A stretch of 64,000 bases of DNA from Impatiens glandulifera (taxonomy: Eukaryota > Streptophyta > Magnoliopsida > Ericales > Balsaminaceae), in the NCBI RefSeq assembly GCF_907164915.1, contig NC_061862.1, positions 142,653,913 through 142,717,912 of the forward strand, in the 5' to 3' direction. Position numbers and translations under genes: made by a program. The notes below the pieces were generated by a model. The model was not told the DNA's origin. It searched no databases and worked only from the letters and a program-made list of their open reading frames with translations. Positions 23,191 to 46,468 of this stretch are shown here, piece after piece (position 1 is the first letter of the stretch; each line of letters starts with the position of its first letter).

Positions 23191-23202
23191 TTAATAACGA
23201 AT

Positions 23203-23949: not shown

Positions 23950-24077
23950 TTTTTGTTTTTTTCTCTTATACAATTGGAAGATGTTACTTTTTTTGCTCTT
24001 TATTAAATTTCAATCTATTTCACAATTCTTGACAAGTCTCTAGTCATAATCTGTTATGCTGAAGTAAATAAACAAAT

Positions 24078-24159
24078 TTCAAGATGGTTGAATGGTCCAA
24101 GGTGCCAGACTCAAGTTTTGGTCCACTACCTAGGCGTGGTTCAAACCCCACTTCTAACA
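24078..24159 (+). pseudogene. tRNA-Leu(CAA) copy 5, degenerate
   Basis: Acceptor and D arms are mutated (TTCAAGATGGTTGAATGG) and the T arm is shortened (GGCGTGGTTCAAACCCCAC). Probably inactive. Confidence 0.78.
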
Positions 24160-24311
24160 ATTTTATTTTTTTTACTTTTTTTTCTTACACAATTGGAAGA
24201 TGTTAAATTTTTTTTGCTCTCTATTAAATTTCCATCTATTACACAATTCTTGACAAGTCTCTAGTCATGGTCTGTTATGGTGAATAAAGTAAAACTATAT
24301 TGTGACAAAAC

Positions 24312-24783
24312 CAGTTCAGATCTTCTGCTACCGATTGCCGTGTTCCCCTGTGGCGGACCAATCAGATTGCAGCATTATTATTTTAATAATAAATCAATCT
24401 GGGCAGGAGACGGAGGGAGGGAGAATCCGGAATCCGGGTTTAGGCCCGGGTTCACACCAGACGCCGTTAACGGAAGCGCCTGTTAACGCCAGGAAATAAT
24501 ATAATATTCATATGATAAACAGATAAGATATCTTCGCTCCGGGACCGTGTCAGAGGGGAGGGTGAGATACGATGGGAGCGAAGATCTACACGCCCGTTGC
24601 ACTGACCCTCATGTAAACCCCGCATACCCACCCATGAGAAGACCGCCTGCCGTTCATGAAAATACACTTACACGTCTATGTAAAGACCGAATTGACAGGG
24701 ATATTATATTTACGTTTATTAAATATTAATTTAATTTATTAAAAAACACATGCAGCGATATAATATTCGCTTCAATTAATTCA
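24312..24783 (+). repeat. Left terminal inverted repeat of the giant MULE
   Basis: Matches the complement of 45987-46458 with only a handful of substitutions (for example GGGCAGGAG against GGGCCGGAG). It contains a GC-rich inner part (GGGTTTAGGCCCGGGTTCAC) and the first AAGATATCTTCGC motif. Confidence 0.93.
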
Positions 24784-25760
24784 TTCATTTATTTTCTACG
24801 AATATTTATTTAATTTTTGTATTTAATTTTTTTTGCCTAGAGACTCTCTGGAGCGAAGATATATTTGCTTCAATTAATTTTAATTAAAACCCATGTAAAC
24901 CCCCCAACCCACCCATGAGAAGACCGCCTGCCTGCCATGGAAAGACACTAACCCGTTTATGTGAAGACCAAAATGACATGGATTTTATATTTCCATTTAT
25001 TAAATATTAATTCAATTAATTGAAGATGACATGCAGCAACCGAACAAATCTTCGCCTCAATTACTTTTCTATTTTTTTCCTTTTTTTTATTTCATTTTTT
25101 TTGGCTGGAGACCCTCATGAGCGAAGATATATTTGCTTCAATTAATTCTAATAAAAACCTCATGTAAAACCCCCCTACCCACCCATGAGAAGACCGCTTG
25201 CCTACCATGTAAAGACACTTACCCGCCTATGTAAAGGCCAAAATGACATGGATTTTATATTTCCGATTATTAAATATTAATTCAATTAATTGAAGATGAC
25301 ATGCAGCAACCGAACAAATCTTCGCCTCAATTACTGGCTAGTTTTTTTCTTGTTTTTTTTATTTCCGTTTATTAATAAATGTTAATTCAATTAATTTAAA
25401 ATGACATGCAGCGATATAATATTCGCTTCAATTAATTCATTAATTTTTTTTTTATTTAAATTTTTTTGCTGGAAGAGAATATTTGTTCGCCTAGACCATG
25501 TTCCATGTAAAATGGATTGAATAGTCGCTTCTCGAGAGAACACTTATTCGCCCCTGGTCCCTGTGTCATGTTACATGGAATGAATAGTCGCTTTTCGAAA
25601 GAAGACATGTTCGCCCCGGTTACATGAATATATATACCCCCTAATATGATTATTTTATAATCATTTCCGCCCGATTCATCTCTCTCTCTTCCTGCCTCCT
25701 TTTCACGGCGATTCGTAACCGGCTCCCCGTCGACCGAACCTGAATCCACATCTTCACGAC
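24784..25760. repeat. Left subterminal repeats of the giant MULE
   Basis: A roughly 240-bp module is repeated at about 24840-25075 and 25090-25340, with a related part in the TIR. It has GAGCGAAGATATATTTGCTT, then CCCACCCATGAGAAGACCGC, ATGTAAAGACACTTACCCG, and GACATGCAGCAACCGAAC. 25480-25640 holds two copies of a TTCGCC...CATGTTCCATGTAAAATGGA type phrase. The module recurs inverted on the right side, so the true inverted zone is about 1.2 kb. Confidence 0.85.
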
Positions 25761-25766
25761 TCCACA

Positions 25767-26936
25767 ATGGTACGTATTCCTGAATAGTAACTTTTCATAT
25801 TTAGGATTATGGAACTACTACACTAGATTCTGTTATGTGATGTTGTTGTCTCTTTAATCTTTAGGAAACCCTACTCTCAAAATGTCACCTTCACTGTAAA
25901 TCAATGTTATTTAGGAAAAATTACCTAGTGTTATGTTTTGGGATATTATTTCCATGAAACCCTAGTACATACTAACAAAGACCGTTTTTTTTTCATGCAC
26001 GTGCAGGCAACCGCCTCAGCATCCGTCCAAAACTTTGGCAAAGACTGGATTTTATGCCCAAATCAATTAACAAGTGAAGAGATAGTACTCTTCGTGACAT
26101 TTCTCCCTTTTTTTTCCATATTGTTTAAGTTTTCATCCTGTTTAACTGAAATATTTATGATTGTTCTTAAACAGCACTTGATGCAACAATATGCTAACAC
26201 ATGTGGTGCCACGGTGACAATGAGGTGGCGAGACGATGTGACCCACGTCATAGCATCCACCGATTCTAATGGTGGATGCGGTCGCACTATCAAAGTATTG
26301 AAGGGCATATTGAACGGGAGTTGGGTCCTTACCATTGATTGTGAGACTCTGTTATTCTTAACCCTTTACTGTTAACTCAATATTCATTTTCACATATATG
26401 AAACTAAAAACACCTCTTACTTTTATACAGGGATAAAATCATCAATCAGATTTAACTGTTACGTGGACGAGGAACCATACGAGGTGCAGCGAGATAATCA
26501 TGGGACTGTGGGCGGTCCAACTGGCAGAATGCGGTATTTGAACAATGTAAGTTTTCTCTTATTCCTACTCCTCCATATGATATTCAATTGTCCATGATTA
26601 CTAATAATGTTTTGTATTTTCTTTCAGCTGCCGAAACTCTTCGACAGTTACACCTTCATATTTGCAGGGGAATTCATCCCGGCTTACAAACTGGATCTTA
26701 TGGGGTTTGTAATTGCTGGAGGAGGTACAACTAAAGAAATGGAGAATCCATTTGTCGAGCCCGAGGACGACAAAACTATAGTTGTATACGACAAGTCTCG
26801 GCACGATGTTAATGAACTTGTTTGGGTATTTGAGGCAGAGAATCCTCTGAAGACATATTTGGATGTGTTTGGTGTTCCTCACACAAGCTTGCTAGAATCC
26901 ATTGCTGCTTGTGATTTGCAGCCTTTGTTTTTGTAA
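25767..26936 (+). CDS. Tandem-BRCT protein, BRCA1/BARD1 C-terminus-like, carried by the giant MULE
   Basis: Five exons, 25767-25769 (only the ATG), 26007-26084, 26175-26340, 26431-26546 and 26628-26936, join in phase into 223 residues. BRCT 1 (about residues 15-95) has GATVTMRWRDDVTHVIAST, GGCGRTIKVLKGILNGSWVL and TIDWIKSS. The linker has DNHGTVGGPTGRMRYLNN. BRCT 2 (about 122-220) starts PKLFDSYTFIFAGEF and ends with LLESIAACDLQPL. This is the arrangement of plant BRCA1 and BARD1, whose BRCT pairs bind phosphopeptides in DNA repair. The RING and other N-terminal parts are absent. All splice signals and the frame are intact, so it may be expressed. The role for the transposon is inferred, perhaps repair of excision or insertion sites. 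Confidence 0.85.
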
Positions 26937-27503
26937 TACACATGTGTTGGTTTAATTTGTTACTTAATATTTGAATATTTTGCATTCTTGAAAATTCAAT
27001 GTCATATTTGATTTCAGATTTATCTTTTTTGTTCTTCGAATTGTTTTTTTTTAAAACATCAGCCTTATATTTAACTAAATCTTGAAACATTAAGAAATAA
27101 TGTATAACTTGAAGTATAAATTTGATAAATAATTAATATTTTTTAAAACTACTGTCAAAATAATATTTCTAAAACAATTGTCAAAATAATAACAGTATGT
27201 GAAGAAATCTTCGCTTACTGATTGATTGATTGATTTATTAATTTTATTTCATAATAATTTTTGTCATTTAATTATTAAAATGAAATAATTTTTTTAACAA
27301 GTCACCTCACCGCCACCTAACACCTGCCACCTTTTCATTAAATGCTGCATGCAGCAAGCCATGCTGCTAGACAAAATTTGTACTATTCTCTCTCTCACCC
27401 GTACGACCATTTCTTCGCCGGAGTTATACTACATTGTCTACCATCGACCTCTCCTTCGCCGGAGACTTCATTATAATATCAATCCATCTTCCTAAATTAT
27501 AAA
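26937..27503. promoter_or_regulatory. BRCT gene 3' flank and transposase 5' region
   Basis: Contains the untranslated ends of the neighbouring genes. A GTGAAGAAATCTTCGCTT motif near 27198 and a pyrimidine-rich CTCTCTCTCACC leader at about 27388 precede the transposase ATG. Confidence 0.5.
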
Positions 27504-30257
27504 ATGGTATGTTTTTGAATGTCATCTATACCTTCTTTACTTTTCGTCCCAACCTTTTCTATGTGTTTTGAATACTCGACATGAAATGTTCTGTTCTGTT
27601 TGATTATCAGGAAGGAACACATATCAGCGAGAATGATATGGACGAGAATGATATTAATGATTTAAGGTAACATTGTTTAACTTCTCCAATATTTTTAGTG
27701 CACATGTAAGCGAAGATCTCTTCACTAATATATTTTTAGATAATATCTTATAAAGCGAAACTATATTCGCCTAATATTACAATCTTCATACTGTTGAAGT
27801 GAAGCTTTCTTCGCTTATATTGTTTTCATTTTCCAATAATCTACAAGTTCTGGTTAGTTGAACCTTTATTTTCCACGTGTTCAAACTGAACAGCGAATCT
27901 GCTACTTGTCGTCGTCAATTGAATTTCGATGCAAACGGCCAACCTTTGGAGGACATCGAAGCCAACTTAATTCCACTTTTAGGTAGAGAATTTGAGAGTG
28001 AAGAAGAAGGCTACGTATTCTACTTAGCATACGCTAAACTAATAGGATTTGGTATAAGGCGCAGTTCAAAACATGTAGACAAGGAGGGTAAAATACTGGA
28101 TAGAGTTTTTTGTTGTAGTGCACAGGGTGAACGGGGAAAGGACAAACGTGATGTCTATGTGAAACGTAGACGTTCTGTGACTCGGTTCTGTTGTGAAGCG
28201 AAATTGAGGATAAAGAGGGCAGACAATGGAAAGTTCCAAGTGGTAAATTTTATTAGTGATCATAGTCATCCTCTTGCAAGTCCAAAGAAAACTCACCTGT
28301 ATAGATGCCATAGGAATATTTCTGCAGTTGCAGGCTTACATATCGAGATGGCCACTAACGTGGGAATTCCTCCTAAGTCATCACATGCTCTAATGTCTAA
28401 ACAAATCGGTGGAAGGGAGAATCTAGGTTTTCTTTCTGAGGATTACAAAAATTACCTGCGCACGAAAAGAACCAGAGAGTGTAATTTTGGGGAAACAGGG
28501 GGTGTATTAGAGTATTTGCAGAAAAAACAATCCAATGATCCTGGTTTTTATAATGCTTTTCAACTTGATGCGGACGATTTGATAACGAATATTTTTTGGT
28601 GTGATTCCAACATGCGGTCCGATTATTCATACTTCGGAGACGTGGTCAGTTTTGACACCACATACAAGAAGAATAATGAAGGTCGTCCAGTTGCGCTTTT
28701 TGTAGGTGTCAATCATCACAAACAATCAATTATTTTTGGAGCAGCTCTATTATACGATGAAACTGCGATGACTTTTGATTGGTTGTTTGAGACTTTCACC
28801 AAAGCTATGCATGGGAAAAAACCAAAAACCATTCTTACAGATCAAGACGCGGCCATGGCTAAGGCCTTGGCGTCTACATGGCCCGAAACAAATCATCGTC
28901 TCTGTATTTGGCACATATTTCAAAATGCAGCCATACATCTTAGCTCGGTGTTCCATAATTTCAGAGATTTTTCTAAGGATTTTTCTTCGTGTATATATGA
29001 TTTTGAAGAAGAGATAGAGTTTGTTGAAGCTTGGAATCAAATGTTGACAAACTACGGGCTTGAAAACAACGATTGGTTGAAACGCATGTTTAGCATCAGG
29101 CGAAAGTGGGCATTAGTGTATGGACGACAAATGTTTTGTGCTGATATGACGACAACACAGAGAAGTGAGAGTATGAACAGTATGTTGAAAAGGTACTGCT
29201 CCTACAAACACAAGTATTTAGAATTTTTCAAACACTTTGAAAGACTACTCGATGAAAGAAGATATGATGTGTTGAAGGCTGATTTCAAATCAATTACCAG
29301 CCAACAGAGTCTTAACTATCCAGTTTTGATCTTAAAGGATGCCTGCAAAGTTTACACCCCAGAGGTCTTTAAGTGCTTTGAACAACAATGGTTTATGTCG
29401 CATGATTGTGGTGTAGAAATGTTAGAGGATGTCGACACACACAGAAAATACAAGGTAACACCCCACACTAGGAGATGCTCTCATACAGTTACAGTTCATA
29501 AGAATGACGATAAGAATATCGAGTGTAGCTGCTGTAAATTTGAATTTGGAGGGATTTTGTGTGCTCACATCCTAAAGATTTTCACAACGATTGACGTGTT
29601 GAAGATTCCTCCGGCGTTGATATTGAAGAGGTGGACAAGAACAGCCAAAGATGGAATATTTGGAACTGATCCAATCGTGGACAGTACTAATGTTGATCCG
29701 AGTGAGCTTCATAACATAAGATACAGAGATTTGTGTGGGTTGTCCATGCATTTATTTACCAAGGCAGCCGAAAGAGATGACACTTACAATCATGTCAAAG
29801 AAATCATGCTGAGCCAGTGCACGTTTGTGGATAAAAAATTGCAGGAGAGTATAAATATGCAAACTCCACCAACCGGTGTATCACGTTCTGCCGAGGGTGC
29901 CCCTGTTCAAGCAAAAGGAATGAAAACTAAGAAGCCCACAAAGTCTGGTAAGAGAAGGAAAGGTGGACTGGAGAAGAACTCAAGAAAACGAAAATCAACA
30001 AGAATAACTAGTGAATCACATATTCCGGTATGAAATTGCTGACTTACCTTCTTTACTAATAATTGTGTTATTAATATTCATATAATAACATACTTTTAAA
30101 TAAATTTGATATTCCTTTCCAGCCATCAAGTGCAATGCCAACGACAACTCCTCAGTTCTCAACTCCTCAACAATGGGACGAAAGTTTCAGCATGGACGCC
30201 AATACTCCGTTCACTGTTCTTTTGTCATCTCAACTATCGAACTCCAGTTTCATGTGA
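27504..30257 (+). CDS. FAR1/MURA-type transposase of the giant MULE, intact
   Basis: Catalyses cut-and-paste transposition by recognising the TIRs. Exons 27504-27506 (only the ATG), 27611-27666, 27894-30027 and 30123-30257 give 775 residues with matching phases. A FAR1-type zinc DNA-binding domain spans about residues 50-150 (EFESEEEGYVFYLAYAKLIG, then CCEAKLRI and HSHPL). The DDE domain shows Asp at about 274 (SFDTTYKKN), Asp at 335/337 (LTDQDAAMAKAL) and Glu at about 445 (TTQRSESMNSM). A SWIM zinc finger (CSCCKF...CAHILKIF) lies at 564-580, then a basic tail rich in KKPTKSGKRRK. Nothing in the frame is broken, so the enzyme should be active if transcribed. The same family includes domesticated FHY3/FAR1, but linkage to TIRs makes this a transposase. 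Confidence 0.94.
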
Positions 30258-31087: not shown

Positions 31088-32337
31088 TCATTGACTTATC
31101 CATTTACGGCAGGAATTGTAGACCTTGCTCCTGGCCTTGTTGAGCTCCGAGCCAATGACACGCCAACAGTATTCCATCCTTAATGTCTTTATTTGGTTCC
31201 TTACATTTCTTTTAACTCCAAAGCCAGTTTTCCACCCCTTCACCTCACCTTCATACGTCTCCATGTGTCTCATGCAAAAAATGCCGCAGTCAGTGTAATT
31301 CTTTGAATCATGCCATGGCAATTTCAGACATATCTTTTCCAAACCGCCATACTTTTTAGCAAGAACGGGGTCTACGTCGTTCATATATTGTTGAATGTAG
31401 TCATCCTGATACATCATTACAAACAACATTATGTAATGTATTTTAGTGCTACTAGAATTCCAAAATTGAACTATTTTAAATTTTAATTGTAGTGTCATAC
31501 CAAGATTTGTGCATTCTTATATCTTCTTTCGAAGGGCGATTGCATAGGTGACTGCCGGTTATCAATTACTTGAAATTGCCTTTGTATGAAGTTATAGCAA
31601 ACCAGGTAGAAATGTCTGTCATCAATGATTGGGAAAAACAACTGTGGATAGAATTAAAGAAGATTAGATTTGAACTGAGTGGTAAATGATATTATAAGGT
31701 ATGACAGCCAGAGATGTACTTACGAGGTCCACTTCCCAGAGGTCCATTTTTGAAATTTGGAAAGCCCGACCTTCTAGACAGAACCTGTCATTGAATTTTT
31801 CTCGCGTAGTTATCCCACCTTCACGAAAAATCTGTTTACAGCAGTCTTTAGTCTCACAAGAATAACATAATTGATAAATAACAGTGCTAGTACAACTTAC
31901 GGTGAGCACGGTTGTGTAGAAAATCTTCTTGTAACGACGTTTGACATTTTTCCTAGAAAGGTCGTGCAAAATGTATGACCAAACATCAATAATCATACTG
32001 TCTACCCAGGTTTGATCAGCCATTGTAAGCATGTCCCCGCGCGTCACGTGTAGACATAGGTTTTCCGCAATAAATAACATTTCACTACATGAAAACAGCA
32101 AAACATGTTTCAAAATGGTGTACAATTCCTATTTTTTATGAATAATTAAGCATTTGCAGGAAACATACCTTGGATCAAGTCCTCCAGCAAATTACGAAAC
32201 CCACAAAAATCTTCTGAAAGTTTGTTAGTTTCTTTTCATCCCTAAACATTTTATTGAAATGTGGGGTTTTCAAAGCTGGAGGCAAGTCCAATGCTTTAAG
32301 CCATTCTTTCGTTTGCATGTTTGGACGAGAAGACCCA

Positions 32338-32530
32338 GTTTGAAGTGGCGGTAGTAGACTGGAGATGCCTTCTTCAGGTTCATTCTTTACTATCTCCAAA
32401 GAAGAGGCGGTTTGAAGTGGCGGTAGTAGACTGGAGATGCCTTCTTCAGGTTCATTCTTTACTATCTCCAATGAAGAGGCGGTTTGAAGTGGCTGTGGTA
32501 GACTGGAGATGCATTCTTCAGGTTCCTTTT
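32338..32530 (-). repeat. 72-bp coding repeat in Ulp1-like gene 1
   Basis: Units start at 32341, 32413 and 32485, exactly 72 bp apart, and encode SSLEIVKNEPEEGISSLLPP in the minus-strand frame. Near-identical units imply recent amplification. Confidence 0.88.
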
Positions 32531-32754
32531 AACTATCGCCAAAGAAGGAGAGTTTTTGTTGGTTTCGGTTTTTGATGACATCGGTTAACCAATCAGTTTT
32601 CAAATTTCGTGGGCTTTTCTTTGGACATTTAAGGCCTTTGAAGGTCCTGCTTCCTCTTTTTTGTGATAATTAGGGTAGGAGGCAAGGCTGGGGTGGTTGG
32701 AGTGCTGGTGTTCGTGTTGGTTTCTGTTTTGGGAGTAATTGGGTTGTGCTTTGG

Positions 32755-33200
32755 GTTTGGCTTGTGCCATTGGAGGGGGTGTGGTTTTGAGAGGAGGAAT
32801 GGGGTTTGCTTTGGCTTGTGCCATTGGAGGGGGTGTGGTTTTGAGTGGAGGAATGGGGTTTGCTTTGGCTTGTGCCATTGGAGGGGGTGGGGCTGGGGTT
32901 TTGAGTGGAGGAATGGGTTTGCTTTGGCTTGTGCCATTGGAGGGGGTGTGGTTTTGAGAGGAGGAAGGGGGTTGGCTTTGGCTTGTGCCATTGGAGGGAG
33001 TGTGGTTTTCATTGGAGGAATGGGGTTGGATTTGGCTTGTGCCCTTGGAGGGGGTGTGGTTTTGATTGGAGGAAGGGGGTTGGCTTTGGCTTGTGCCATT
33101 GGAGGGGTGTGTGGTTTTGATTGGAGGAAGGGGGTTGGCTTTGGCTTGTGCCATTGGAGGGGGTGGGGCTGGGGTTTTGGTATCTGTTTTGAGTGGAAGG
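32755..33200 (-). repeat. 54-bp proline-rich minisatellite in Ulp1-like gene 1
   Basis: Eight units begin CTTGTGCCATTGGAGG (plus strand) at 32761, 32815, 32869, 32928, 32982, 33036, 33090 and 33145. Most intervals are 54 bp, but one is 59 and one 55, which break the frame. On the minus strand they encode MAQAKANPLPPIKTTPP-type repeats. Confidence 0.92.
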
Positions 33201-35165
33201 GGGTTCTTGTGGGATTGGGGTGTTGGTGTGAGGGTGGTTTGTGTGTGGTCTAGGGTGTTTAGAGGATGGGTGTTGGATTTGGCTTGGTTGTCTGCGTTGA
33301 TATTTTTTGGATGTTGGGAGAAAAGGGTGCTCTTGTTGGATGGGGCCGTTGGTGGGTGGTTGGCTTTGTCTTCGTTTCGGTGGTGGGGGTGAATGGGTTC
33401 TTGTTCGATGGGGCAGTTGGATTGGTGTTGTCAGGGTTGTTGGTAGGAAGGGTGTTGCCTTTCGCTTGGGTGGTGGCTTCCGTGTTGGGGTTAATGCCAC
33501 TTCCTCTGGGCTGCTGCTTTTTGTTTTGGTCCAGACTCCGCTGTAAGCCTTCCCTCAGGATTGCATTGGAGTTTAGCACCGTGGCCAATGGCTCAAATGC
33601 AGACTGTACAAGTTCCATGTCGTTTATCTAGTGCATCTCATTCAGATATTTAGCCCCTTGTGCCAATTCTTCGGCAGCGGCCGCAACCTTCCTCAAACAT
33701 GACGCCAGGTTTTGTGTAATTGGAGCATGCTCAGTTGGATGGTCATCTCCAGATTGTGGTGGTGTTGGCTGCACATTTTGTTGCATCGGTGGTTGCTCAT
33801 TCGGAATGGCTATGCGAGCAACCACCCTACCATGTCCAAACCCCCCCTGTGCAGCCTCATACTCAACCCTTTCGTACATCTTCTTCTCGTCCCAGCATCC
33901 TAAAATAGGAAAACTCCTTGAGATCTGACTGTTTACCTTGAACTCAACCACACGGTCCAAGTAGCACAACTGATACATTAGCATGAACAAATATATGTTA
34001 CGTTCAAAGTCATCAAAAAATTATGAATGTACAACCTCCAGCAAATAGATTTCTACACTCACCAAAAGAAAGGTTAATGGTCCATGGAAATAGGATGTCT
34101 TCTTTGCTTTCCACTTATAAACACTGTCGACTAGCCCGTCTAACGTGAACTTGCACCAGTTGTAGTCTTTGATTTTAGATACATCCTGGAGGGATTTCAG
34201 TACTTTGAATCTGAAAATAAAAAAGTAGTGACTCAAGCCATTTAAAATGATATTGAAGTTCTAAATGAGATCACATAATTAATGCTAGGTTCTTTGGGTT
34301 TACCTGCACTGTGGATTTTGGGATGTCCACAAAAAACTAGATACAACAAACACCACGAAGTCCATCTTGAAGTTACTGTCTCCTTCTGTGTTCTGTAGAA
34401 TTTTGTCAGGCATTTGGTAGGTTGAAGGACCTCCACTGTTCTCGAATCCCCATCTCCTTCTCCACGCCGTGAGATGGTCCTTGTACACCTTGTCGTCCGT
34501 GTGATTTCCTAAACACTCTGCCACTACTAATTCACCTCTGGGTATGTTCAATACACATTGATCATCCTCTTCATCAATCTGCATCTCCTCTCCACTGTGT
34601 AGGACGATGCTCCTCCTTCTGGGATTGAATAGACTCACAATGCACCGTGAGAATTGAAGTGGGCATTTTGATATGCCAAGTGACAGAAGGGAACCAAATC
34701 CTATGTCCCTCACAGCCTGCTTCTGTTGTTCAGATAACCGGTTAATCAGGTGATGAAGGCCCGATGGAGAGGTTCTGCTCTTGAAATCGACATCAGGGTC
34801 ACGAGTCCTTCTTCTTTTCTTTTGAACCTGGTTCTCACTAAGTGCTTCATTCGCCGCGTTGGCCAGAATATCCAGTGGTGTCGTGGGCGTGCCTGATGCA
34901 TCGGGTTTTCGTTTCCTTTGTTGAACACTACATTATTATTAGCAAATTGGCTTACTTACCTAATCCAAATATAGTCAAATTTGTACAATTGTAACATTCG
35001 CGTAATTACCTTAGTGTGTTCACTTTAGTCGTGGATTCAGTATATGGAACTATTTGCATATCGGAATCCTGATTCTGAGATGTTAAAGTCACATTTAGAT
35101 TCGAACGACCTAAACTAAGAAAACGAAATAGACACAAGCATGCAACCGTAAACACTTCTTACCAT

Positions 35166-38100
35166 TTTCGCTGGAGCAGAAGATATTAACCGGAAGAGAA
35201 ATGGATTCGTAGTCGAAATGCCGGAGACGACAGCGCTAGGTCAGATGGTAGAATAACCTGGGTGTATTACGGCCGGATTCGGGCTTCAGATGTTTTACAG
35301 TTTTACTTTGCAAAGTGCACTGTTAGTGTGAATGTATTTTCATGAGGCCGTATCGGTTTTCACAAACATGAATAAGGAGTTTCTCATGAACTTCGTACGA
35401 GTCGAAGCGATATTCGCTTTTGTAGTGTGAAAGGTAATTATGCATTATGAAAAGTAACATACTACAATAGACGAGGATGTATTCGTGCAGAACTCCGCAA
35501 TGTACGAATATATCTTCGCTTAGTACATGTCTTTCTTGTTTCAGATTATTTGAAAAAAAATTCCCACAAAATGAACAACTATTTGCTTCTCAATGCTGAA
35601 TAAGCGAACAAATCTTCGATCTGCCAATCTAACAGATCGTATCCAATCTAAAGGAATGAAATTTGATTCGATGGTAGCGATTGACTGGCCGTCGTCACAA
35701 AGCCTGAGACTTTGTGACAGTTGACTTGACATGTGGAAAATTTTTTGGCGCTTCATTGTACTAATTTCCTTTTTAATTGAGCTGTCAATTAAATTAAATT
35801 AATTTTTTTTTAAATATAAATGACAATGTATATATTTTACTTTGACACTCATGTAATAAATATAAGGTTTGTTATGTATGAATAATTTAATATTTCATAT
35901 AATGTTAATTATAGTAAATGTAATTTTTTTATTTATGACCGTAGTATTCAGCATTTAGTAATATAAATTTTTGGTTTCGATAATAAGTGTAACAAGATAA
36001 GATCAAACATCACCTAAACTTTTTAATTAACAATATATAAATTATGATTGATGTTCCCTATCTAAAATAATGAAGACTGGTCCGATTCGATGTATAATGA
36101 TTACTTTAAGATATGATGTACCGTACAAAAATATGTCTGTAATGAATTATAAATAAAAATGAAATATGATCCAGGGGATAGAAATTGAAAAATGGTTTGT
36201 AGCGAAGATTTATTCGCGGCGTGTGTTTTCCACCCACATTCATTCATAATTTTGGTCTTCACATACAAGCGTTGGTGTACTTACATCAGGTGTACAGAGT
36301 CTTCTAATGTAAGGGTTGTGTGTTTCACATGTACGTCAACTTAGAATTCATTCAAGCGAAGATTTATTCGCTTCATATTAGTTTCTCATAATTTGCAATT
36401 TTCACTGAACACGGATATATGTTCGCTTCTTTTCATCTATAATTAGATGAATGCATGTGTTTAAAAATAGAAAAATAAAATTAATTTGCAACTGTATTAA
36501 AATATACTATTTTTTACTTTTTGTGATGTGACAACAATACTGCACACTGTTCCGATTTGACATGTCATGACAGGCTTAATACTTTTACTGAATCCATAGA
36601 TATGAAATGATTTCTTTATAGGGTTTTATACAAAAACACACTTCTTTTTCAATGATGACATATAATTTCTGCATGATGTGACAAAACAAAGGACTGCCTA
36701 CTGATCCGCCAAGTCATTTGAGCGAATATTTGTTCGCTTAATGTCAATTATAATAATTTCATATAATATGAAATAAAGGGAAATTTAAAATACATTTAAT
36801 TTTGGTCTACACATACACGGTTTAGTGTCTTTCCATGACAGACAAGCGGGCTTCTCATTGTTGTGTATGGGGGGTGTACACGGGGGACAGGTCGAAAACA
36901 ATTGTGGCGAAGATTTCTTCGCTTATGGAGTTAGTTTAGCTCAGATCTCTTCCCTGTTCGTATAGCAATACTATTATAGTATTATATTGAATATAATTTT
37001 ATAATTATTCATGAAAATATTTTTATTAATGTTGAAATAATTTATTATCTAATATAATGTGAATGACAATATTGAATTATTTCTTTTATTTAATATTATT
37101 AAGTGTTATTACTTTTTCGTGAATGAAATTACTTTTTCATGATGTGACAAAGTGACTACACACTGTTCGGATTTGATATTTCATCACGGGAAATTTACTT
37201 TTTCTGAATCAATAGATCTAAATATTTTATGAAGAAAACAGATTTTCTGTTTGCTATAAATGTAGGGATTACATGAACAATCTTCGTCGGCAGCATGAAA
37301 TATCTATTGAGCGTTGTTGTTGAGAGTGTGTGTTTTTTTCATATAGTTTGTTGGGATGTATCATTTGGGAGATTCTCTGTGATGGAAAACTTGTACAATG
37401 AAGATCAACTGGTGGAAAACATCTTCAGTTACCACGAATGCTTGGTAACTCAAGTAGAAACTACCGATCAAATGAAGATCATTCGTGTACACTGCTGGTG
37501 GGAAGCGCCAACTGTAGGAGATTCCCTGGGATGGAAAACATCTCAAGAGATAACTCAACAGGTGTATGACCCCAGTTATGCGTGAGAGATCCGCTGTGGT
37601 TGCTTCAATGGAGATGCCTTGAAGCTGGAGATGCAGATGAATATTGTTAAAATGTACAAATGTTTATGAAACGGGGAAATGTTTATGAAACTTGTAATGA
37701 AAATTTGTACGTCGAATTATAATAATTATTTGTTATTTATATTTTCATGCAAATGTCATTAAACATTAATAAAATAACGAATTTGTTAGAAATAATAAAG
37801 TATTATCATATCTACTCTTCTGGCTAAGTATACGTTGCCCATAAGTCATATCATTGCCATAATTAAATGTAAGTTTTGGTCCGATTCGATGTGTAATGAT
37901 TATAAATAAAAATTAAATGTGATTAACGGATAGAAATTGAAAAATTTGTTAGAAATAATAAAGTATTATCATATCTACTCTTCTGGCTAAGTATACGTTG
38001 CCCATAAGTCATATCATTGCCATAATTTTAAATGTAAGTTTTGGTCCGATTCGATGTGTAATGATTATAAATAAAAATTAAATGTGATTAACGGATAGAA

Positions 38101-39140
38101 ATTGAAAAATTGTTTGTAGCGAAGATTTATTCGCGGCGTGTATTTTCCTCCCACATTCATTCATCATTTTGGTCTTCACATACAAGCGTTGGTGTACTTA
38201 CATCAGGTGTAAAGGGTCTTCTCATGTAAGGGTTGTGTGTTTCACATGTACGTCAACTTAGAATTCATTCAAGCGAAGATTTATTCGCTTCAAATTAGTT
38301 CCTCATAATTTGCAATTTTCACTGAACACGAATATATGTTCGCTTCTTTTCATATATAATTAGATGAATTCATGTGTTTAAAAATTGAAAAAAAAAACAT
38401 AATTTGCAACTTTATTAAAATATAATATTTATTAATTTTTGTGATGTGACAACAATACTGCACACTGTTCCGATTTGATATGTCAAGACAGGCTTAATAC
38501 AGTAATCCATAGATATGAAATGATTTCTTTATAGGGTTTTATACGAAAACACACTTCTTTTTTCAATGATGAAATATAATTTCAATACATTTCCGTTCAA
38601 TGTGGGCGACCTCAAATATGAAGATCAAGCGAATAGTATTTCGTTTCGTAACAATGTTGTGTTTAATATAGAAACTTACAGGCGAATGATTCTTCGTTTT
38701 CAAATTCATTAGAGTATGACATGAAAGTGTCAACAATAATATGTAACTTCAAAGATTGGATGCGACATCATCTTCGTTTTCAAGGGTTTTACAGGCGAAG
38801 AAATGTCCGTTCGATTTACTGATTAGATCTGTGTAAGGAAGCGAGCAACCAATCGATGGATCAATCTAAGGGGTTTACATGAACAGATCAGTTGTTTTAC
38901 ATTATACTTTGAATTGATCATGACATCCAAATTGCAATCAAAGAATCAAACATAACGACAATGAGTCGATTTATATCACTCCAGAATAAACTCACTACAT
39001 AATGTAAAATATAACTTCAGACTATAATCAAACATAACTTCATAATATTGTTGAATACACAAAAACATTCCATAATCCGTTTACATAAGTACTGCACAGA
39101 TTAACCAACAATATAGCTGTTCAACAATACAAATGAAGCT
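35166..39140. other. 4-kb non-coding core of the giant MULE with a segmental duplication
   Basis: 36090-36650 and about 38035-38590 are diverged direct copies (both contain AGCGAAGATTTATTCGCGGC and the phrase GACAACAATACTGCACACTG). Inside the right part, 37777-37945 and 37946-38110 are near-identical tandem copies (TAGAAATAATAAAGTATTAT start). Many GCGAAGATTTATTCGC motifs occur. A 96-codon open frame at 37295-37585 has internal repeats of DxLxWKT-type sequence, but I would not call it a gene. Confidence 0.75.
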
Positions 39141-40307
39141 CTAGTCTAATTCATGAGAGGATGACTCGTCTATCGGTCCTGTCAGCGACACGACCTCATG
39201 TTCGATGACGGGTGGAATGTATAGCTGAATGGCTTCGTTCACAGCATTGATCCATCGGTTGGGGATGAAAACCGTCAAAGAATTTTCAATTATTGATGCG
39301 TACTCTAAGTAAAGATGGTGAGGAGTAAACATGAAGTCCTCCGGAGGATTGTGTCCATTTGAAGGTAGGGGATTCCGTAGGCCAAATTGTCTGTATATGA
39401 CAGTTGTGCAGTAGGAGGTAGTTCCCTGAAGGCCCAACAAAATGATGAATGGAGAACCCCTCATCTCGTACATCATTTCAGTAAACAGATACCACGGAAC
39501 AATGAACCTAATTGGGTGAATATCCGAAATAAAATTCGGAGGCACGAGTCCATTGACCCTTTGCACTTGTAGATTGGCAAAGGAAGTGTAGGGAATTGAA
39601 GGACGGGGCAACCAATGCAACTTGTCTAACAACCAGAGGTATAGAACCAAAGGTGATCCACGGCGAGAATAGTTGTTTTCCTCGGGAACAAATTCGTTAA
39701 GACCAAGTAATGTCTCAGCAAGTACCAGGCTAGCCAGGTTTGGGGCGTTTCCCATCAGTGCAGGAACTACCCGCAGGATCTTTTCCGAAGGCCGGCGTCC
39801 TGCAGCCGGACATAAAAAAAAATGAGCCAGAACCACAAGCATGATCAGTTTGCTTTGTGTGTGGTTGATGGTCCTCTCAGCTCCCTGGACACGCCAAATG
39901 TACTCGTCTATGTTTGTCATATTCAGAAATCCATGTTGGAGGGTAAACAAAAGAGCATCAAACATTGTACATCCATAGAAGCTGTCGCAAATGTGGACGG
40001 CCATATGAGGATCTTGATGGACAGGCAAGATCATGAGTGCAAGACTACCACACCTAAGGATTGAAGCAAAGTCCTCTATCGTCGGGCATATGTGCATTTC
40101 CCCAATAACAAAAGAACGAGAGTCCGTATTCCATCTGCTTTGCATGTGGGCCATCAGTCCGTCGTTAACGTTTATTCGTAATAGAGGAAGAATCTCATCT
40201 ACATGATAGACACTAAAAGGGACAGGGTCATCGTTGATCAGACTTAAGTATCGCTCCAGTTGTTGCTGCGATAAAACCAGCATGTCTGGGTCCATCTCTA
40301 CATCCAT
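39141..40307 (-). CDS. Plant-mobile-domain-like (PMD/DUF7745-type) protein of the giant MULE
   Basis: Single exon, 388 residues, no stops. The pattern is that of plant mobile domain and related transposon proteins: WNTDSRSFVIGEMHICPTIE near residues 60-80, then IDEYIWRVQGAERTI, a leucine-rich stretch, LVLYLWLLDKLHWLPRP near 225, and IRFIVPWYLFTEMM near 268. PMD proteins occur in Mutator and Gypsy elements and in host genes MAIN and MAIL1, which act in silencing and genome stability. Assignment to this superfamily is by motif memory. Gene starts at MDVEMDPDM; a second in-frame Met lies four codons on. The intact frame inside an otherwise partly decayed set suggests selection or recent origin. 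A role in TE regulation is inferred. Confidence 0.72.
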   Translation of the reverse strand: MDVEMDPDMLVLSQQQLERYLSLINDDPVPFSVYHVDEILPLLRINVNDGLMAHMQSRWNTDSRSFVIGEMHICPTIEDFASILRCGSLALMILPVHQDPHMAVHICDSFYGCTMFDALLFTLQHGFLNMTNIDEYIWRVQGAERTINHTQSKLIMLVVLAHFFLCPAAGRRPSEKILRVVPALMGNAPNLASLVLAETLLGLNEFVPEENNYSRRGSPLVLYLWLLDKLHWLPRPSIPYTSFANLQVQRVNGLVPPNFISDIHPIRFIVPWYLFTEMMYEMRGSPFIILLGLQGTTSYCTTVIYRQFGLRNPLPSNGHNPPEDFMFTPHHLYLEYASIIENSLTVFIPNRWINAVNEAIQLYIPPVIEHEVVSLTGPIDESSSHELD

Positions 40308-40500
40308 CTTATGAGTTTTACACTAAATGACTGAAGGAAAGACAACGGTAGATAGAGATTTGGGAAGGAGTGAGAGTGTAATGTGAGAGTGAGAGTGAGA
40401 GTGAGGGTATGAGAGTGATGATCTTGATACAGAAGTAGTTGAAGTAATAAATGAGTTTTCATTCTTGAATTGACATCAATACATACCACAGGTAGGGGCA
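40308..40500. promoter_or_regulatory. Upstream region of the PMD-like gene
   Basis: A (GTGAGA)n-like tract (GTGAGAGTGAGAGTGAGAGT at about 40382) lies directly upstream of the start on the transcribed side. This purine/pyrimidine leader is common in plant 5' leaders. Confidence 0.5.
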
Positions 40501-41000
40501 TTACATGTTGCGAGGATATCTTCGTTTATGAATTGGCAAACATATAGTGAAGAAGATATCTTCGTCTCGGATATTAAAAATATGGATTGCACCAAAAAAT
40601 AACATAAGAAGATATCTTCGTTTAGGATTTTGAAAATGTATAGTTGCGAGGATATCTTCGTTTATGAATTGGCAAACATATAGTGAAGAAGATATCTTCG
40701 TCTCGGATATTAAAAATATGGATTGCACCAAAAATGAACATTAGAAGATATCTTCGTTTAGGATTTTGAAAATGTATAGTTGCGAGGATATCTTCGTTTA
40801 TGAATTTAAAAACATATAGTGAAGAAGATATCTTCGTCTCGGATTTCCAAAATATGGATTGCACCAAAAATGAACATAAGAAGATATCTTCGTTTATGAA
40901 TTTCAAAATTTTCAGTTAAGAAGATATTACGGTTGCAAGTTTTTCAGTTTCATGATGTTGACAATATATCTTCGTTTAAGAATATTAAAACACACAGTTA
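40500..41000. repeat. Tandem array of GAAGATATCTTCGT-bearing modules
   Basis: A module of about 135 bp (GAGGATATCTTCGTTTATGA, then AGAAGATATCTTCGTCTCGG, then AAGATATCTTCGTTTAGGAT) is repeated nearly three times from 40506. Each module carries three copies of the palindromic GAAGATATCTTC core. It lies between the PMD-like gene and the 3' end of the second Ulp1-like gene, so it could act as a promoter or boundary array. Confidence 0.88.
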
Positions 41001-41235
41001 AGAAATGATCCTCGTTTATGATTTTAAAAAAATCGGTACAAGAAGACACATCAAACATCAATACATTATAACTCCATACATTAACATCTGAATTGCAGTC
41101 CATACATTAAAATCTGAATTGCATTATAATTTATAATTCACTATCAAACATCCATACATTAAAAAAATGTGAATTGACCTGTGTAAACATAAGAATTACT
41201 GTACAAGTATAATTCCGTATAAGACATACGAATAC

Positions 41236-44200
41236 CTAATATCTTGATCTAATTGCAGTCTTTAACTTGAACCTATTGACATTGTGCTCAGACATAAGAA
41301 TTCTGTATAAATATTTTATCCTCAACGTACTCAAAGCTTCTTCGGCCTTCAAAAGAACAAGAGAAAGTATAAGAACATCTAAAATTGTTCAATATCATCT
41401 ACTAAAATATGGTATAACACTTACATTATTTTCGTTGATGTCAATAGACCAATTCTTCGCCGTTCCTCTATATGTTTCCATATGTCTCATTAAGTATACA
41501 CCACAGTCTGTCTTGTTTGTTTTGTCTTGCCAGTCCAGCTTTGGGGCCGTTATCCTGTATTTTTTAACCTTGGCAGTCATTCTTTCCATGCCTTGACTTA
41601 ACAAGAATTTCACAAAACAATCGAGTTGTTTACTCAAAGTGACATACTTGTCCATAATTTTCATTCCATGAGGACGGCCGGAGTTGTCTAGTACAACGAT
41701 TTTGGATTCCTTAATATTCACACAAACAAGGAAGAAATGTCGGGAAACGACAACGGGTAGGAATATCTGCAAAAAGAACACAAACATTTATTACTTTATT
41801 GCATATTCTTTACTTGGAATTGAGGGATATGTACAGACCACGTCAGCGAAGATGAGGTCTTCTTTTGTGACTTGGTAGTTTCTCATGTCTTCTTCAATGG
41901 ATTAGGAAAATAAGGTGGCATCATGCTGCATATTAACCTGCAAAATAAGGGCAGAGCATCAAAGTCATGAACATTGAAGGATACATAGCAAAAAAAAAGA
42001 GATGCACTTACATGTGAACATGATGAGAAACAAATTATTCTTGGTTCATGCCTTGGCAACCTACGGCATTTGAAGTGCACAATTATGGACCAAGCGTCAA
42101 TCACTTCGCTCGAAATTTCGCGACCCATTTTCATTGAACGAAGTAATTCACGGGTGATATTACCAGGTGCACCTTCGTACAGAACCTCACTGCAAAATAC
42201 ATTCATTTAGAAGACCATAACTAAATAATTTCATTTTTAAAATTTCTAAAACAATGCGAACTAACTTACAATCCAGGCAGGTCTTCATCAAACACAAAAT
42301 CGGCTAATCTCTGTTCCTTGTTGGTTATTTTGTGGTCCAACATATCCGCAACCTGTTGCATGTAAGGGGATCGAAGGTGCACATGAATTTTTGAGATCTT
42401 CCTCTTAGGATATTCTTTAATGTTGATGCGTCCCCCCCCATCACCTTCATCTTCATCTTCAGAAGATTCAACGGCCTTAGAAGCCTCAACCTGTTGCTTG
42501 CCTTCACCCTGATCAGTTGGTGCAACAGACTGAGCTTGGGGTTCCTCAACATTTTCCTTCCCTGCACCATGATCATTTGATCAAAATGCTGAGGTTTGGG
42601 TTCCTCAACCTGTTGCTTGCCTTCACCCTGATCACTTGGTGCAACAGACTGAGCTTGGGGTTCCTCAACATTTTCCTTCCCTGCCCCCTGATCATTTGGA
42701 TTTTCATGCGGAGATTTTGGTTCATCAACCTGTTCCTTCCCTTCAACCTGATCATCGTCTTCAACAGTGGTTGTCTGCACTTTGTGTGCCTCATCCGGTT
42801 CCTTCCATTCACCCTCATGATCAATTGGTTCAACACTGGGTGAGTCATCTTTGTTGGGCAGAAATGAATCCTCATGTTCGTCCTGCTGAGGAGGGGGTGA
42901 ATTGGCTTGACTGTGCTGAAATACAGCCTCTACATCTTCCTGTTCAACAAGGAGTGATTCATCTTCAATGTCCTCACGTACATCCTCAACAGATTTCGGT
43001 TGAACAGGGGGTGACGGAGCTTCATTGGGCAGAACGGCAACATCGAGATCATTCTGTTCAACGTGATCTGATGGATTTTCTTGATTTGACATCACCGCAT
43101 CCTCAAAATCATTCAGTTCAGCCTGTGCTGGTGGATTGTCTGCATGGTCCTCCACTGCAGTCTGACATGTGTAATCAACCCGGGGACTATTGACTTTCAA
43201 GCCCGCACACTGTAAAGTGTCCCCAAGTGCATCCCTTGTAGGATCTTCCACACCTACATGAACCGGACCATCGATCACCACCTTCAAGAGTTTCATGAAG
43301 CCTTCAGACTCTCTGAGGTTCAGGAAACCGGCCTCAAAAAAGGGCTTCGGATCGATGTTGCGTTTCTCCAACTCCCCTGATAGGTAATTCAGCTGTTGGG
43401 CTGTATCTTTAAAAGTTTGCAGGATTTTGGATGTCAACATCTGTACATTATGAAAAACAGAGATCATTAATCTTGAAAACAGGATAATAAAGAACAATGG
43501 GAGTCAATTTATAGTTTCCACATACCTCATTATCGTCTTCTTTTAGTTCAACCGAGTCAACTGGATTCTCGGGTTGTTTAACTGCTAGGCGCGCCCTTGC
43601 CCTGCCCAGCCCAAAACCACCGGCACGAACTTCTAAGTTGGTAAACTCTAACACGGTGACGTCATCCCAACAGGAGATAATTGGAAATTTTCTTTCGTAG
43701 GGGATACGTTCACCTTCCACAAAAACACCATCTAGGTAGCAAATCTGGAGTAAAGGAGTGGGAAACATGTTAGAAAATATTACATATCTATAAATCATAT
43801 ATAAGAGAGGCAACAATACTTACCGATAAAAGGGTTATAGGTCCATCGAAATATGGATTTTTATCTTTACTTGCTTTTTCTTTCCAACTTCTTACACTGT
43901 CAACCAATCGTTGTAGTGTAAAGTGGCACCAGTTCAGTTCCTTTATGTTATCAACCTCCATTAAGGATTTGAGAATTTTGAACCTGAAATGAAAAAAATA
44001 CATTTGTCAGTATTCACAAATACAATTAGATATATAATAGGTTTGAATACATGTTTACCTGGCTCGTGAATTTTGAACAGGACATAAAAAACTAGAGACA
44101 ACAAAGACAACGAAGTCTATTTTGAAATCGTTGTCTGCACTTGTGTTACTTAATATCTTGGGGATCATAGAAAGTATTTCGGGAGCTTTTGAGTCTTCCC

Positions 44201-45098
44201 CGGTCCATCTGGTCTTCCAATCCCTCAAGAAATTAAAATAATCAGGGTCCTTAGTCTTGTCCAACCCAACGGACTCGACTACGTTCATTGCCCCTCTAGG
44301 GAGGTTCATCACGAGCTGTACGAGATCTTCATCGATACGGATCTCATCACCGTTGGACAATACCAGAGAACTCTTATCCGGGTCAAAACATTGGATTACG
44401 TGTCTGGAAAAATGAGCCAGGCACTTGGAGACGCCCATTGTAAGAAGAGAACCAAACCCGATTTCCTTCACGGCTTCCCTCTGTTCTACGCTCAATTTAG
44501 GAATGAGTTGAGCGAGGCCATGAGGTGATGATCTGGTTAGAAATGTCAGTTTACGTTTCTTGATGGTTTTGGTTTTTTGGGGAGATGGGGGAAACTCTTC
44601 ATCGAATGGGGTAGTAGACGGAGAAATATTACTGGTTTCTGGGGTGGTTCTGGTAACTCTTCATCGACTGTTGGAGTGGAGGTAGGAATAACATTTGTTT
44701 TTTTTTTAGGGGGAAAAGGTGGTGGTAAAATCTCGTCAGTACCTGCAGCAACATCAGTAGCTTCGACAGCAACTGTGGAAACTGATTCAGCAGTCGATGA
44801 CGACTTAGTATTCGTCTTCGGATTTCTCTTCCTCTTCCTTTCATATGTCCTCGAAGTCATTAATTTTGGTGGGATAGCATAAATCAGTATTATACGAAAT
44901 AAATTGAATAAACATGTGTAAAATTAGTATAAACACAATAAGATTAACATACCTCTCTGGTTTATTGCTGGGATTGACGTTGGATGCCGGAGTGGGTGCA
45001 GTTTCGTTTTCGTTTATGCTCCTACAAACTTGCAAGACGACCTCTCGGGAGTCGATGGGATGATCCACTTCCATGTTGTTGCCTTGGTTACCCGACAT
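41236..45098 (-). pseudogene. Ulp1-like (C48) protease gene 2 of the giant MULE, damaged
   Basis: Paralogue of the 31088-35165 gene. It begins at 45098 (MSGNQGNNMEVDHPID), first exon ending at 44953. The conserved N-terminal block (EIGFGSLLTMGVSKCLAHFS...DFVVFVVSSFL, and ELNWCHFTLQRLVDSV) covers 44495-43850, with CYLDGVFVEGER from 43743. An acidic repeat region follows. The catalytic exon 41766-41425 keeps His (SRHFFLVCVN), Asp (VVLDNS), Gln (DWQD) and Cys (KTDCGVYLMRHMETY). Damage: a frameshift between about 44636 and 44660, a 119-bp instead of 120-bp repeat period near 42531-42650 that shifts frame, an in-frame TAA in the exon near 41905, and a phase mismatch before the last exon. Sequencing or assembly indels could explain some. 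Catalytic residues are better kept than in gene 1. Confidence 0.8.
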
Positions 45099-45299
45099 GT
45101 TCAGAAGAAATCCTTGTAGTATAAACGAAATATCTAGGGTTTCGACGTTCAGTGTTTGGATTATCGCCGGGAGATAGAGAGAGAAGAATATGAACAGTTG
45201 CTTATGAAAATGAAATTGAGGGAGAGTCGGCTTGTAGCGGGAAATTGAAATTATATCAACTAGTCATGGAAGCGAATAAATATTCGTTCGATATCGTAA

Positions 45300-45986
45300 A
45301 TTCATAAAAAATTAATAAAAATAAATGGAAAATAAAAACTATTCATAGAATAGAAGATTTATTCGCGGAATGTAAATGCACGGGTAAGTGAATTTACATG
45401 ACAGGCAAGTTGGCTTCTCATGGGAGGGGAGGTGGTTTTACATGAACGTCAGGCTACAAATATTTGAAAAGAAGAAATCTTCGCTTTCAATCGTCTACTC
45501 GAAAAACAAAATTAAAGCGAATATTTGGTCGTTTACTGATTGTCATTTTAAATTAATTGAATTAACATTTATTAATAAACGGAAAAAAATTAAAAATATA
45601 AAAAAAAATCGAGCCGGTAATTGAGGCGAAGATTTGTTCGGTTGCTGCATGTCATCTTCAATGAATTGAATTAATATTTAATAAACGGAAATATAAAATC
45701 CATGTCATTTTGGTCTTTACATAGACGGGTAAGTGTCTTTACATGATAGGCAAGCGGTCTTCTCATGGGTGGGTAGGGGGGTTTTACATGAGGTTTTGAT
45801 TAGAATTAATTGAAGCAAATATATCTTCGCTCATGAAGGTCTCCAGCCAAAAAAATGAAATAAAAAAAAAGGAAAAAAATAGAAAAGTAATTGAGGCGAA
45901 GAATTGTTCGGTTGCTGCATGTCATCTTCAATTAATTGAATTAATATTTAATAAATGGAAATATAAAATCCATGAAAAAAAAAGAT
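45300..45986. repeat. Right subterminal repeats of the giant MULE
   Basis: Inverted counterparts of the left modules: CAAGCGGTCTTCTCATGGGT with a following TTTTACATGAGG, and AAGCAAATATATCTTCGCTC. Copies lie at about 45370-45650, 45650-45850 and 45890-45985. Confidence 0.85.
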
Positions 45987-46458
45987 TGAATTAATTGAAG
46001 CGAATATTATATCGCTGCATGTGTTTTTTAATAAATTAAATTAATATTTAATAAACGTAAATATAATATCCCTGTCAATTTGGTCTTTACATAGACGTGT
46101 AAGTGTATTTTCATGAACGACAGGCGGTATTCTCATGGGTGGGTAAGGGGGGTTTACATGAGGGTCATTGCAACGGGCGTGTAGATCTTCGCTCCCATCG
46201 TATCTCACCCTCCCCTCTGACACGGTCCCGGAGCGAAGATATCTTATCTGTTTATCATATGAATATTATATTATTTCCTGGCGTTAACAGGCGCTTCCGT
46301 TAACGGCGTCTGGTGTGAACCCGGGCCTAAACCCGGATTCCGGATTCTCCCTCCCTCCGTCTCCGGCCCAGATTGATTTATTATTAAAATAATAATGCTG
46401 CAATCTGATTGGTCCGCCACAGGGGAACACGGCAATCGGTAGCAGAAGATCTGATCTG
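45987..46458 (-). repeat. Right terminal inverted repeat of the giant MULE
   Basis: Near-identical complement of 24312-24783. It ends CAGAAGATCTGATCTG, directly followed by the 10-bp duplication GTGACAAAAC. Confidence 0.93.
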
Positions 46459-46468
46459 GTGACAAAAC

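Follow-up and report, generated by a model that had tools for sequence, protein, structure and literature searches.

The accessory genes of Mutator-like elements (MULEs) are usually read as captured passengers. Here we describe a MULE of about 22 kb that lies in a 64-kb stretch of the Impatiens glandulifera genome (contig NC_061862.1, positions 142,653,913 to 142,717,912; GC content 0.337; referred to as the window) and contains, in addition to its transposase gene, a tandem-BRCT gene, a PMD-like gene and two Ulp1-like genes, A and B. Published elements share single features with it, as far as the accessible portions of the papers cited here describe them. Grapevine Jittery-like ULP MULEs (Jitvine) are alike in having a Jittery/FAR1-type transposase, a large size and, in some families, a downstream ULP gene; however, Jitvine-1 (11.9 kb) and Jitvine-2 (14.4 kb) are shorter than the Impatiens element, and the available part of that report tabulates no length of terminal inverted repeats (TIRs) or target site duplications (TSDs) and mentions no BRCT, PMD or second ULP gene (PMC2528002). 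ULP-containing Jittery-like MULEs also occur in melon, and ULP domains are found in TIR, non-TIR and Jittery-like MULEs (PMC2528002). VANDAL elements with VANC, including the KIU/Kaonashi type, are alike in that their accessory protein has an N-domain, a repeat-associated variable region and, in KIU, a Ulp1 domain, but VANDALs and KI-MULEs are non-TIR elements with a different three-gene set (PMC5735166, PMC10398659, PMC13317346), whereas the Impatiens element has a FAR1-type transposase, long TIRs, two Ulp1-like genes and the PMD-like and BRCT genes. VANC proteins contain DUF1985 and repeat-associated variable regions and target motifs in tandem repeats (PMC5735166). The Impatiens element shares with Kaonashi KI-MULEs the reverse-oriented Ulp1-like genes but not the non-TIR structure.

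Further MULEs with additional genes have been reported. In grasses and Amborella, a PMD-type gene (PMD-C) has been captured inside MULEs, for which an anti-silencing function has been proposed by the authors; in these elements PMD is fused to the transposase, whereas here it is a separate gene that is nearer to DUF7745 (PMC5418596). Abermu is likewise a large MULE with several open reading frames (ORFs), including an extra ORF in the opposite orientation; however, it is closer to MuDR, no such gene set appears in the accessible part of its description, and its ORFRs show no similarity between distant plants or to MURB (PMC9168764). Pack-MULEs also hold host-like genes inside MULE ends but are usually small and non-autonomous (PMC13317346, PMC9168764); while a Pack-MULE has no transposase and only gene fragments, this element has a full 765-aa transposase and whole accessory genes with several exons. 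An earlier reading of the window, made from the sequence only, knew of no described family with this gene set, and none was found among the listed titles and abstract openings of the openly accessible literature, a search whose scope excluded most subscription papers and Repbase, so that an unnamed Repbase entry is possible; the papers found on BRCT in a Mutator-like or MULE context concern, in their accessible parts, other matters. The same reading proposed a new class of giant MULE. The element is indeed very large and its gene set has no counterpart in the literature found, but since ULP-bearing Jittery-type MULEs (PMC2528002) and PMD-capturing MULEs (PMC5418596) are in print, what we have here would be better termed a new, very large MULE variant, whose gene functions are putative.

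The 22,147-bp unit is enclosed by an exact 10-bp duplication, GTGACAAAAC, at 24302-24311 and 46459-46468, as had been noted. The left TIR arm, which includes tandem subterminal units of about 270 bp, spans 24312-25433 on the plus strand, and the right arm 45510-46458 on the minus strand. When aligned to each other, the arms are 97.7% identical over the outer 487 bp and 93.3% over the next 466 bp or so; one of the first ten terminal bases differs, and the left arm has one additional subterminal unit. The near-identical inverted ends, which had been put at 470 bp, are therefore present but truly longer, about 0.95-1.1 kb per arm. A target duplication within the 9-11-bp range, a MULE transposase domain and long TIRs all agree with membership of the Mutator superfamily. 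Two features inside the element could be taken to mean that it is a chance assembly of two smaller elements sharing ends, namely a third GTGACAAAAC at 36678 and, at 36718-36890 on the minus strand, a copy of the subterminal repeat unit with about 73-77% identity to arm positions 240-470. However, the third GTGACAAAAC adjoins no terminus, the arm's outer 240 bp are not repeated in the interior of the element (where they score no better than on shuffled sequence), and the same 22-kb layout is found at other sites, each with its own TSD. We therefore rejected the third GTGACAAAAC as an internal end, regard the internal subterminal unit as no element end, and consider a composite of two elements so improbable as to be negligible. 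A non-coding direct repeat in the same region (36138-36669 and 38057-38583, both on the plus strand, 92.7% identical to each other) was considered as a nested long terminal repeat element. This is disfavoured, as both repeats contain subterminal-type and motif sequence and are matched in five of six other copies compared, the sixth (C1_84.1) being without that stretch.

Other copies were searched for in the window's own genome (653.9 Mb in 1110 contigs, with the window on contig C1), and all counts below refer to this one genome. The outer 489 bp of the left arm gave at least 143 genome matches, 40 of them near full length at 97-100% identity, as scored from 1276 candidates; among the matches listed, ten facing arm pairs are spaced at 21.9-23.1 kb and one at 13.2 kb. 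Twelve further loci were fetched, and the window copy together with the fetched loci that have both ends make up a set of 12 complete copies; the 13th locus, C5_53.9, was left out as its second end lies outside the retrieved stretch. Eleven of the complete copies measure 21.9-23.1 kb and one 13.2 kb. Ten contain all five genes on the same strands and in the same order, which is tandem-BRCT, FAR1-type MULE transposase, Ulp1-like A, PMD-like and Ulp1-like B. Of the other two, C1_84.1 is without the PMD-like gene, and its gene B is interrupted by about 5 kb of inserted DNA; C329 is without both the PMD-like gene and gene B. Perfect TSDs of 9-10 bp, differing from each other, flank eight of the 12 copies; one more has an 8-bp duplication and another a 9-bp duplication with one mismatch. 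The identity of the BRCT-transposase region across copies is 98.2-99.7%. The prediction that other TIR-bounded copies would hold the same five genes is thus borne out, and the opposite outcome, that the termini belong to separate elements or that the genes never occur together, is contradicted by the complete copies. Motif arrays in every intergenic interval (see below), the common gene order and repeated insertions with separate TSDs mark the five genes as parts of one element, and that this is one transposing unit with a fixed gene set is practically certain.

Linkage beyond the complete copies is in line with this. BRCT sequences were found at 150 or more places in the genome (450 matches; 150 scored of 1366 candidates), with exon 3 at 93-99% identity, and PMD-like sequences at no fewer than 106 places at 85-100% identity (106 scored of 3056 candidates); the latter number is a lower bound, because five frame-split PMD copies discussed below are absent from that listing. 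At least 42 of the 106 PMD places have a partner among the listed BRCT exons that lies on the other strand, 3-25 kb away and upstream with respect to the element's direction, where about 0.27 would be expected by chance; 36 of these 42 pairs are spaced at 11.2-15.1 kb. None of the 106 places was linked in a wrong arrangement.

The transposase gene (27638-30254, plus strand; exons 27638-27666, 27894-30027 and 30123-30254) encodes a 765-aa protein. As the sequence-only reading had it, the gene is intact in the window copy, from the ATG onwards and with GT/AG borders at both introns. The protein has the Pfam domains MULE (PF10551, E=1.2e-29, profile positions 1-99 of 99), FAR1 (3.5e-20) and SWIM (8e-8). 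A FAR1 DNA-binding domain combined with MULE and SWIM is also the composition given for JITA in the accessible part of its description (PMC9569675), and by domain composition the element is of the Jittery/FAR1 type. Close transposases occur in Zingiber, Salvia, Coffea and Cannabis. The 765-aa frame is open in six of the 12 complete copies, while in six it is not open to its end. A further stretch at 20288-21437, which ends 3 kb upstream of the element, has 73% DNA identity to this transposase; within the 64-kb window, arm sequence was found only in the element itself.

The tandem-BRCT gene occupies 26007-26933 on the plus strand, with exons at about 26007-26340, 26431-26546 and 26628-26933. 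The BRCT region is spread over all three exons, which are separated by introns of 81 and 90 bp; the 5' end is uncertain and the first exon may contain one further intron. The Pfam BRCT match is above the cut-off (E=3.8e-6 on a single exon and 3.7e-9 on the spliced model), which upholds the earlier call of a tandem BRCT gene. The closest structures in the PDB are BARD1 (E=3.5e-12) and then BRCA1 (2.6e-9). A protein search gave three plant proteins with 42-47% identity, one of which has PF13771/PF13832, which we take to be ePHD-type, beside BRCT. By these best matches, the tandem BRCT appears to be most like that of BARD1. An N-terminal RING and an ePHD were not noticed in the open frames of the 24-27-kb region, at which no search for them was aimed. 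By alignment, GT/AG is kept at both introns in all 12 complete copies, and the frame is open in 11 of them.

The Ulp1-like genes A (31091-34932) and B (41236-44660) both lie on the minus strand and have the same layout, with a weak PMD/DUF1985-like N-domain, a repeat-rich linker and a C48-like C-domain; their first exons are paralogous and 45% identical. The earlier call of two Ulp1-like genes stands for gene B, whose Peptidase_C48 match is above the Pfam cut-off (E=1.2e-7 on a single exon and 7.3e-10 on joined exons, the latter query having a flawed start), while the C48 domain of gene A falls just under it (20.3 against 20.7 bits). Both genes are broken in the window copy. Gene A has a premature stop and a frame change there, both in the linker, which contains tandem repeats of 72 bp and 54 bp (32338-33165, minus strand; found with TRF); the linker exon is open in six of the 12 complete copies, at 556-672 aa, and its length varies between copies. 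At the conserved PWQD of gene A, the window copy has H where the other 12 loci have Q. In gene B of the window copy, the reading frame changes within the repeat-rich exon, and a premature stop precedes the catalytic exons. Among the six copies legible in this stretch, only the window copy has this stop (the pattern used could not read C1_84.1 or the four second-subfamily copies), and the repeat-rich exon is open, at 412-413 aa, in five of the 11 gene B-bearing copies. A query with a chimeric Ulp1+PMD protein gave no match at E<=0.001, a null result of little weight because the query was artificial.

Gene B falls into two subfamilies, with six and four members among ten copies compared. These are about 97-99% alike in the transposase and the N-domain and diverge strongly from about 43160 to 41360 of the window. 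For four pairs across the two subfamilies, the ratio of non-synonymous to synonymous rates (dN/dS) in the catalytic part is 0.41-0.47, and that in exon 5 is 0.22-0.32; for the whole repeat-rich exon, where two pairs were comparable, it is 1.1-1.4. One copy, C1_139.0 (L038-L040), groups in its left half with one subfamily and in its right half with the other, and therefore copies recombine.

The PMD-like gene is a single 388-aa exon (39144-40307, minus strand), for which a DUF7745 match below the Pfam threshold is the sole Pfam match. Upstream of it lies a 136-bp tandem array (40507-40927) that is rich in ATCTTCG and has two to seven unit matches in the ten PMD-bearing copies. The PMD-like frame is open in five of these ten copies. 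In the five others (C1_109.4, C1_133.9, C1_124.3, C5_26.0 and C1_139.0), which include both gene B subfamilies, a one-base gap is found in the same alignment column and may reflect recurrent slippage, recombination or an assembly error. An AlphaFold model of the protein had a mean pLDDT of 35.5 and was not used. Many nearly equal copies with longer frames of 431-461 aa are present among the PMD places (L044 and others), which suggests a recently amplified subfamily. These longer frames were also considered as a second type of PMD-bearing element; however, in L044, a stretch of 3.3 kb, the alignment to the element extends to either side of the gene, which places L044 in this or a close family.

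We asked how the genes have changed among copies, taking the expectation from the rates at 5308 non-coding sites in those copies. Each variant was scored relative to the majority codon rather than on a tree; through shared ancestry, sites are not fully independent. The blocks used were transposase exon 2, the whole PMD-like gene, parts of the three BRCT exons, the first and last exons of gene A and the first and catalytic exons of gene B; codons outside these blocks were excluded and, for the gene B catalytic exons, copies with less than 85% identity or less than 60% cover were dropped, leaving seven. Transposase exon 2 has 55 non-synonymous and 27 synonymous changes (ratio 0.53, P=0.006), the PMD-like gene 28 and 22 (ratio 0.41, P=0.0016) and the gene A exons 24 and 31 (ratio 0.22, P=5e-8), the lowest ratio of the five genes. 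The transposase, the PMD-like gene and Ulp1-like gene A are thus under purifying selection. Because copies decay after insertion, the ratios understate selection on active copies.

The element is further characterized by short words of the TCTTCG and TTCGC type, which are strongly over-represented in its non-coding parts. The intergenic DNA, 10.0 kb in all, contains ATCTTCG 31 times (18 times after removal of duplicated stretches), compared with a mean of 1.4 and a maximum of 3 in 40 shuffles, whereas the word is found twice in 12.1 kb of gene spans and three times in 39.8 kb outside the element; the motif was chosen from the same data and the outside count excludes an array at 57.7-59.7 kb. 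In all 12 complete copies every intergenic interval has 3.9-13.9 motif hits per kb, against 0.95-1.71 in the pooled genes (gene B of C1_84.1 was left out of the pool), and the number of array units varies between copies. For a held-out check, the 15 seven-letter words most enriched in the left arm relative to the left flank were counted elsewhere. They reach 10.4 per kb in the held-out non-coding interior, compared with 3.5 within genes and 4.6 on the right flank. This contrast comes mostly from TTCG words (ATCTTCG 20, 1 and 1, respectively), and most A/T-rich and GACCGC-type left-arm words show no contrast with the right flank; an expectation-maximization motif search trained on the arms returned A/T-rich words only. 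The observed/expected CpG ratio is 1.12 in element non-coding DNA (0.94 with the motif removed) and 0.54-0.68 in the flanks, which fits weak methylation or young arrays but proves neither. As in VANDALs, an element-specific short motif is thus present in tandem non-coding repeats, specificity being relative to the window flanks and gene spans only.

FAR1-family proteins bind short CG-containing sites, and the TCTTCG/TTCGC arrays might accordingly serve as transposase-binding or promoter sites rather than as targets of anti-silencing. This would agree with their density in the window copy, where the arm-holding intervals have 6.5 and 8.3 hits per kb and the interval beside the 5' end of the PMD-like gene is the densest at 11.0; however, the interval between the 3' ends of the transposase gene and gene A, where neither function is expected, has 10.8. 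We regard binding or promoter sites as a tentative explanation only. Given the VANC-like layout of the Ulp1-like proteins, the Ulp1 domain in KIU and the likeness of the arrays to VANC targets, anti-silencing of the element's own copies is the most probable function for one or both Ulp1-like proteins. As a specific proposal, that the Ulp1-like proteins and the motif form a pair for self-directed anti-silencing comes, by analogy with VANDALs, close to an even call.

Taken as a whole, the element is probably best explained as a FAR1/Jittery-type TIR-MULE family of about 22 kb in which anti-silencing and BRCT repair roles accompany transposition. According to this model, the element would be mobilized in the manner usual for MULEs by its transposase, which would bind the inverted arms. 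Like the VANC/KIU anti-silencing factors, the Ulp1-like proteins, with their fast-evolving repeat linkers, would recognize the TCTTCG/TTCGC motif and strip silencing marks from the element's copies, and the PMD-like protein might assist in this. BARD1-family proteins act on break repair or newly replicated chromatin, and on this ground the BARD1-like tandem-BRCT protein, presumably acquired from a host gene, might engage host chromatin or break repair, such that the repair of excision gaps would maintain or increase copy number. When MULEs excise, they leave double-strand breaks (PMC11511760, accessible part), so a repair-type protein would be a sensible accessory; nevertheless, a repair or chromatin role of the BRCT protein, as judged from its sequence likeness, is doubtful. 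In its strongest form, the proposal is a self-contained unit of transposition and counter-defence, of an as yet undescribed kind, in which the two Ulp1-like, VANC-like proteins and the PMD-like protein would de-silence motif-marked copies while a BARD1 mimic encoded by the element would recruit or block homologous repair at excision breaks, with the donor sites being filled again and more than 150 copies accumulating in one genome; this we think rather unlikely.

Several findings weigh against the model of a transposing unit equipped for anti-silencing and repair. No target duplication was found in two of the 12 complete copies, C5_26.0 and C1_21.1. The former contains 100 N, and in the latter (G000:C1:21153190-21175960, L024-L026) the flanks beside the ends are near-inverted copies of each other. 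The DUF7745 match behind the PMD-like call has only E=6e-4, and the identical one-base gap splits this frame in five of ten copies. The matches of the Ulp1-like N-domains to DUF1985/PMD are far under threshold (E=0.016-0.13; for DUF1985 alone 0.024 and 0.13). Motif words show no shift between the gene B subfamilies, so co-evolution of gene B with the motif is not seen, and GC-rich arm words, for instance GACCGC and AGACCGC, are not repeated in the element's interior. In the selection test, neutrality was not rejected for BRCT (22 non-synonymous and 11 synonymous changes, ratio 0.61, P=0.13), where purifying selection is only a trend, or for gene B exon 1 (ratio 0.67, P=0.2), and the gene B catalytic exons gave a ratio of 1.20 (P=0.71, seven copies). 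Finally, none of the 12 complete copies has all five frames open. The six with an open transposase are the window copy, in which both Ulp1-like genes are broken, C1_84.1, which has no PMD-like gene, and four copies with a split PMD frame; the copies may therefore supply one another's missing functions, or one with all frames open may lie outside the sample. Autonomy, as had been proposed, is thus a putative property: the transposase is open in half of the copies, but the full set of frames in none.

Some of these findings would be expected if the transposase and the ends did everything and the other four genes were old captures that hitch-hike and decay. MULEs often capture genes, according to the accessible text of two reports (PMC13317346, PMC2528002), and the 13.2-kb copy, which has neither the PMD-like gene nor gene B, is flanked by a perfect TSD; the broken Ulp1-like genes of the window copy, the lack of a copy with five open frames and the BRCT and gene B exon 1 results point the same way. 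Against this stand the purifying selection on the PMD-like gene and gene A and the low dN/dS of the gene B catalytic part between subfamilies. In the accessory exons analysed, three stops were found where 17.6 would be expected. Furthermore, 143 of 150 listed BRCT exon-3 matches and 88 of 106 listed PMD matches are without a stop, in listings that favour the best matches and, for PMD, do not include the five frame-split copies. We consider it unlikely that the four genes are mere passengers, and favour an element to which they contribute. The word cargo in the sequence-only reading undersells the accessory genes, at least two of which are under purifying selection.

The surroundings of the element in the window hold several other repeats and duplications. 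A tandem array of units of about 232 bp at 23196-24295 holds a tRNA-Leu(CAA) gene together with another, weaker tRNA match, and the insertion point of the element lies a few bases beyond the end of this array. Two duplicated pairs of receptor-like-kinase-type genes, a family name based on reading their translations, are located on both sides of the element (14457-18938 and 48278-52773) and have 84-86% DNA identity in their best exons. At 57808-59660 lies a large, imperfectly palindromic array made up of short repeats whose core is TTTAACACG/CGTGTTAAA.

Within one genome, numerous copies of this family have transposed with an entire gene set, parts of which are under purifying selection. The motif system of the element resembles the anti-silencing targets of VANDALs, yet sits beside a FAR1-type transposase and long TIRs, which opens the question of whether motif-targeted anti-silencing has arisen more than once in MULEs. 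The BRCT gene opens a second question, whether a transposon may carry its own BARD1-type protein to control the repair of the breaks it makes. The travelling gene set suggests that the element brings along its own means of evading host silencing and, perhaps, of directing DNA repair.

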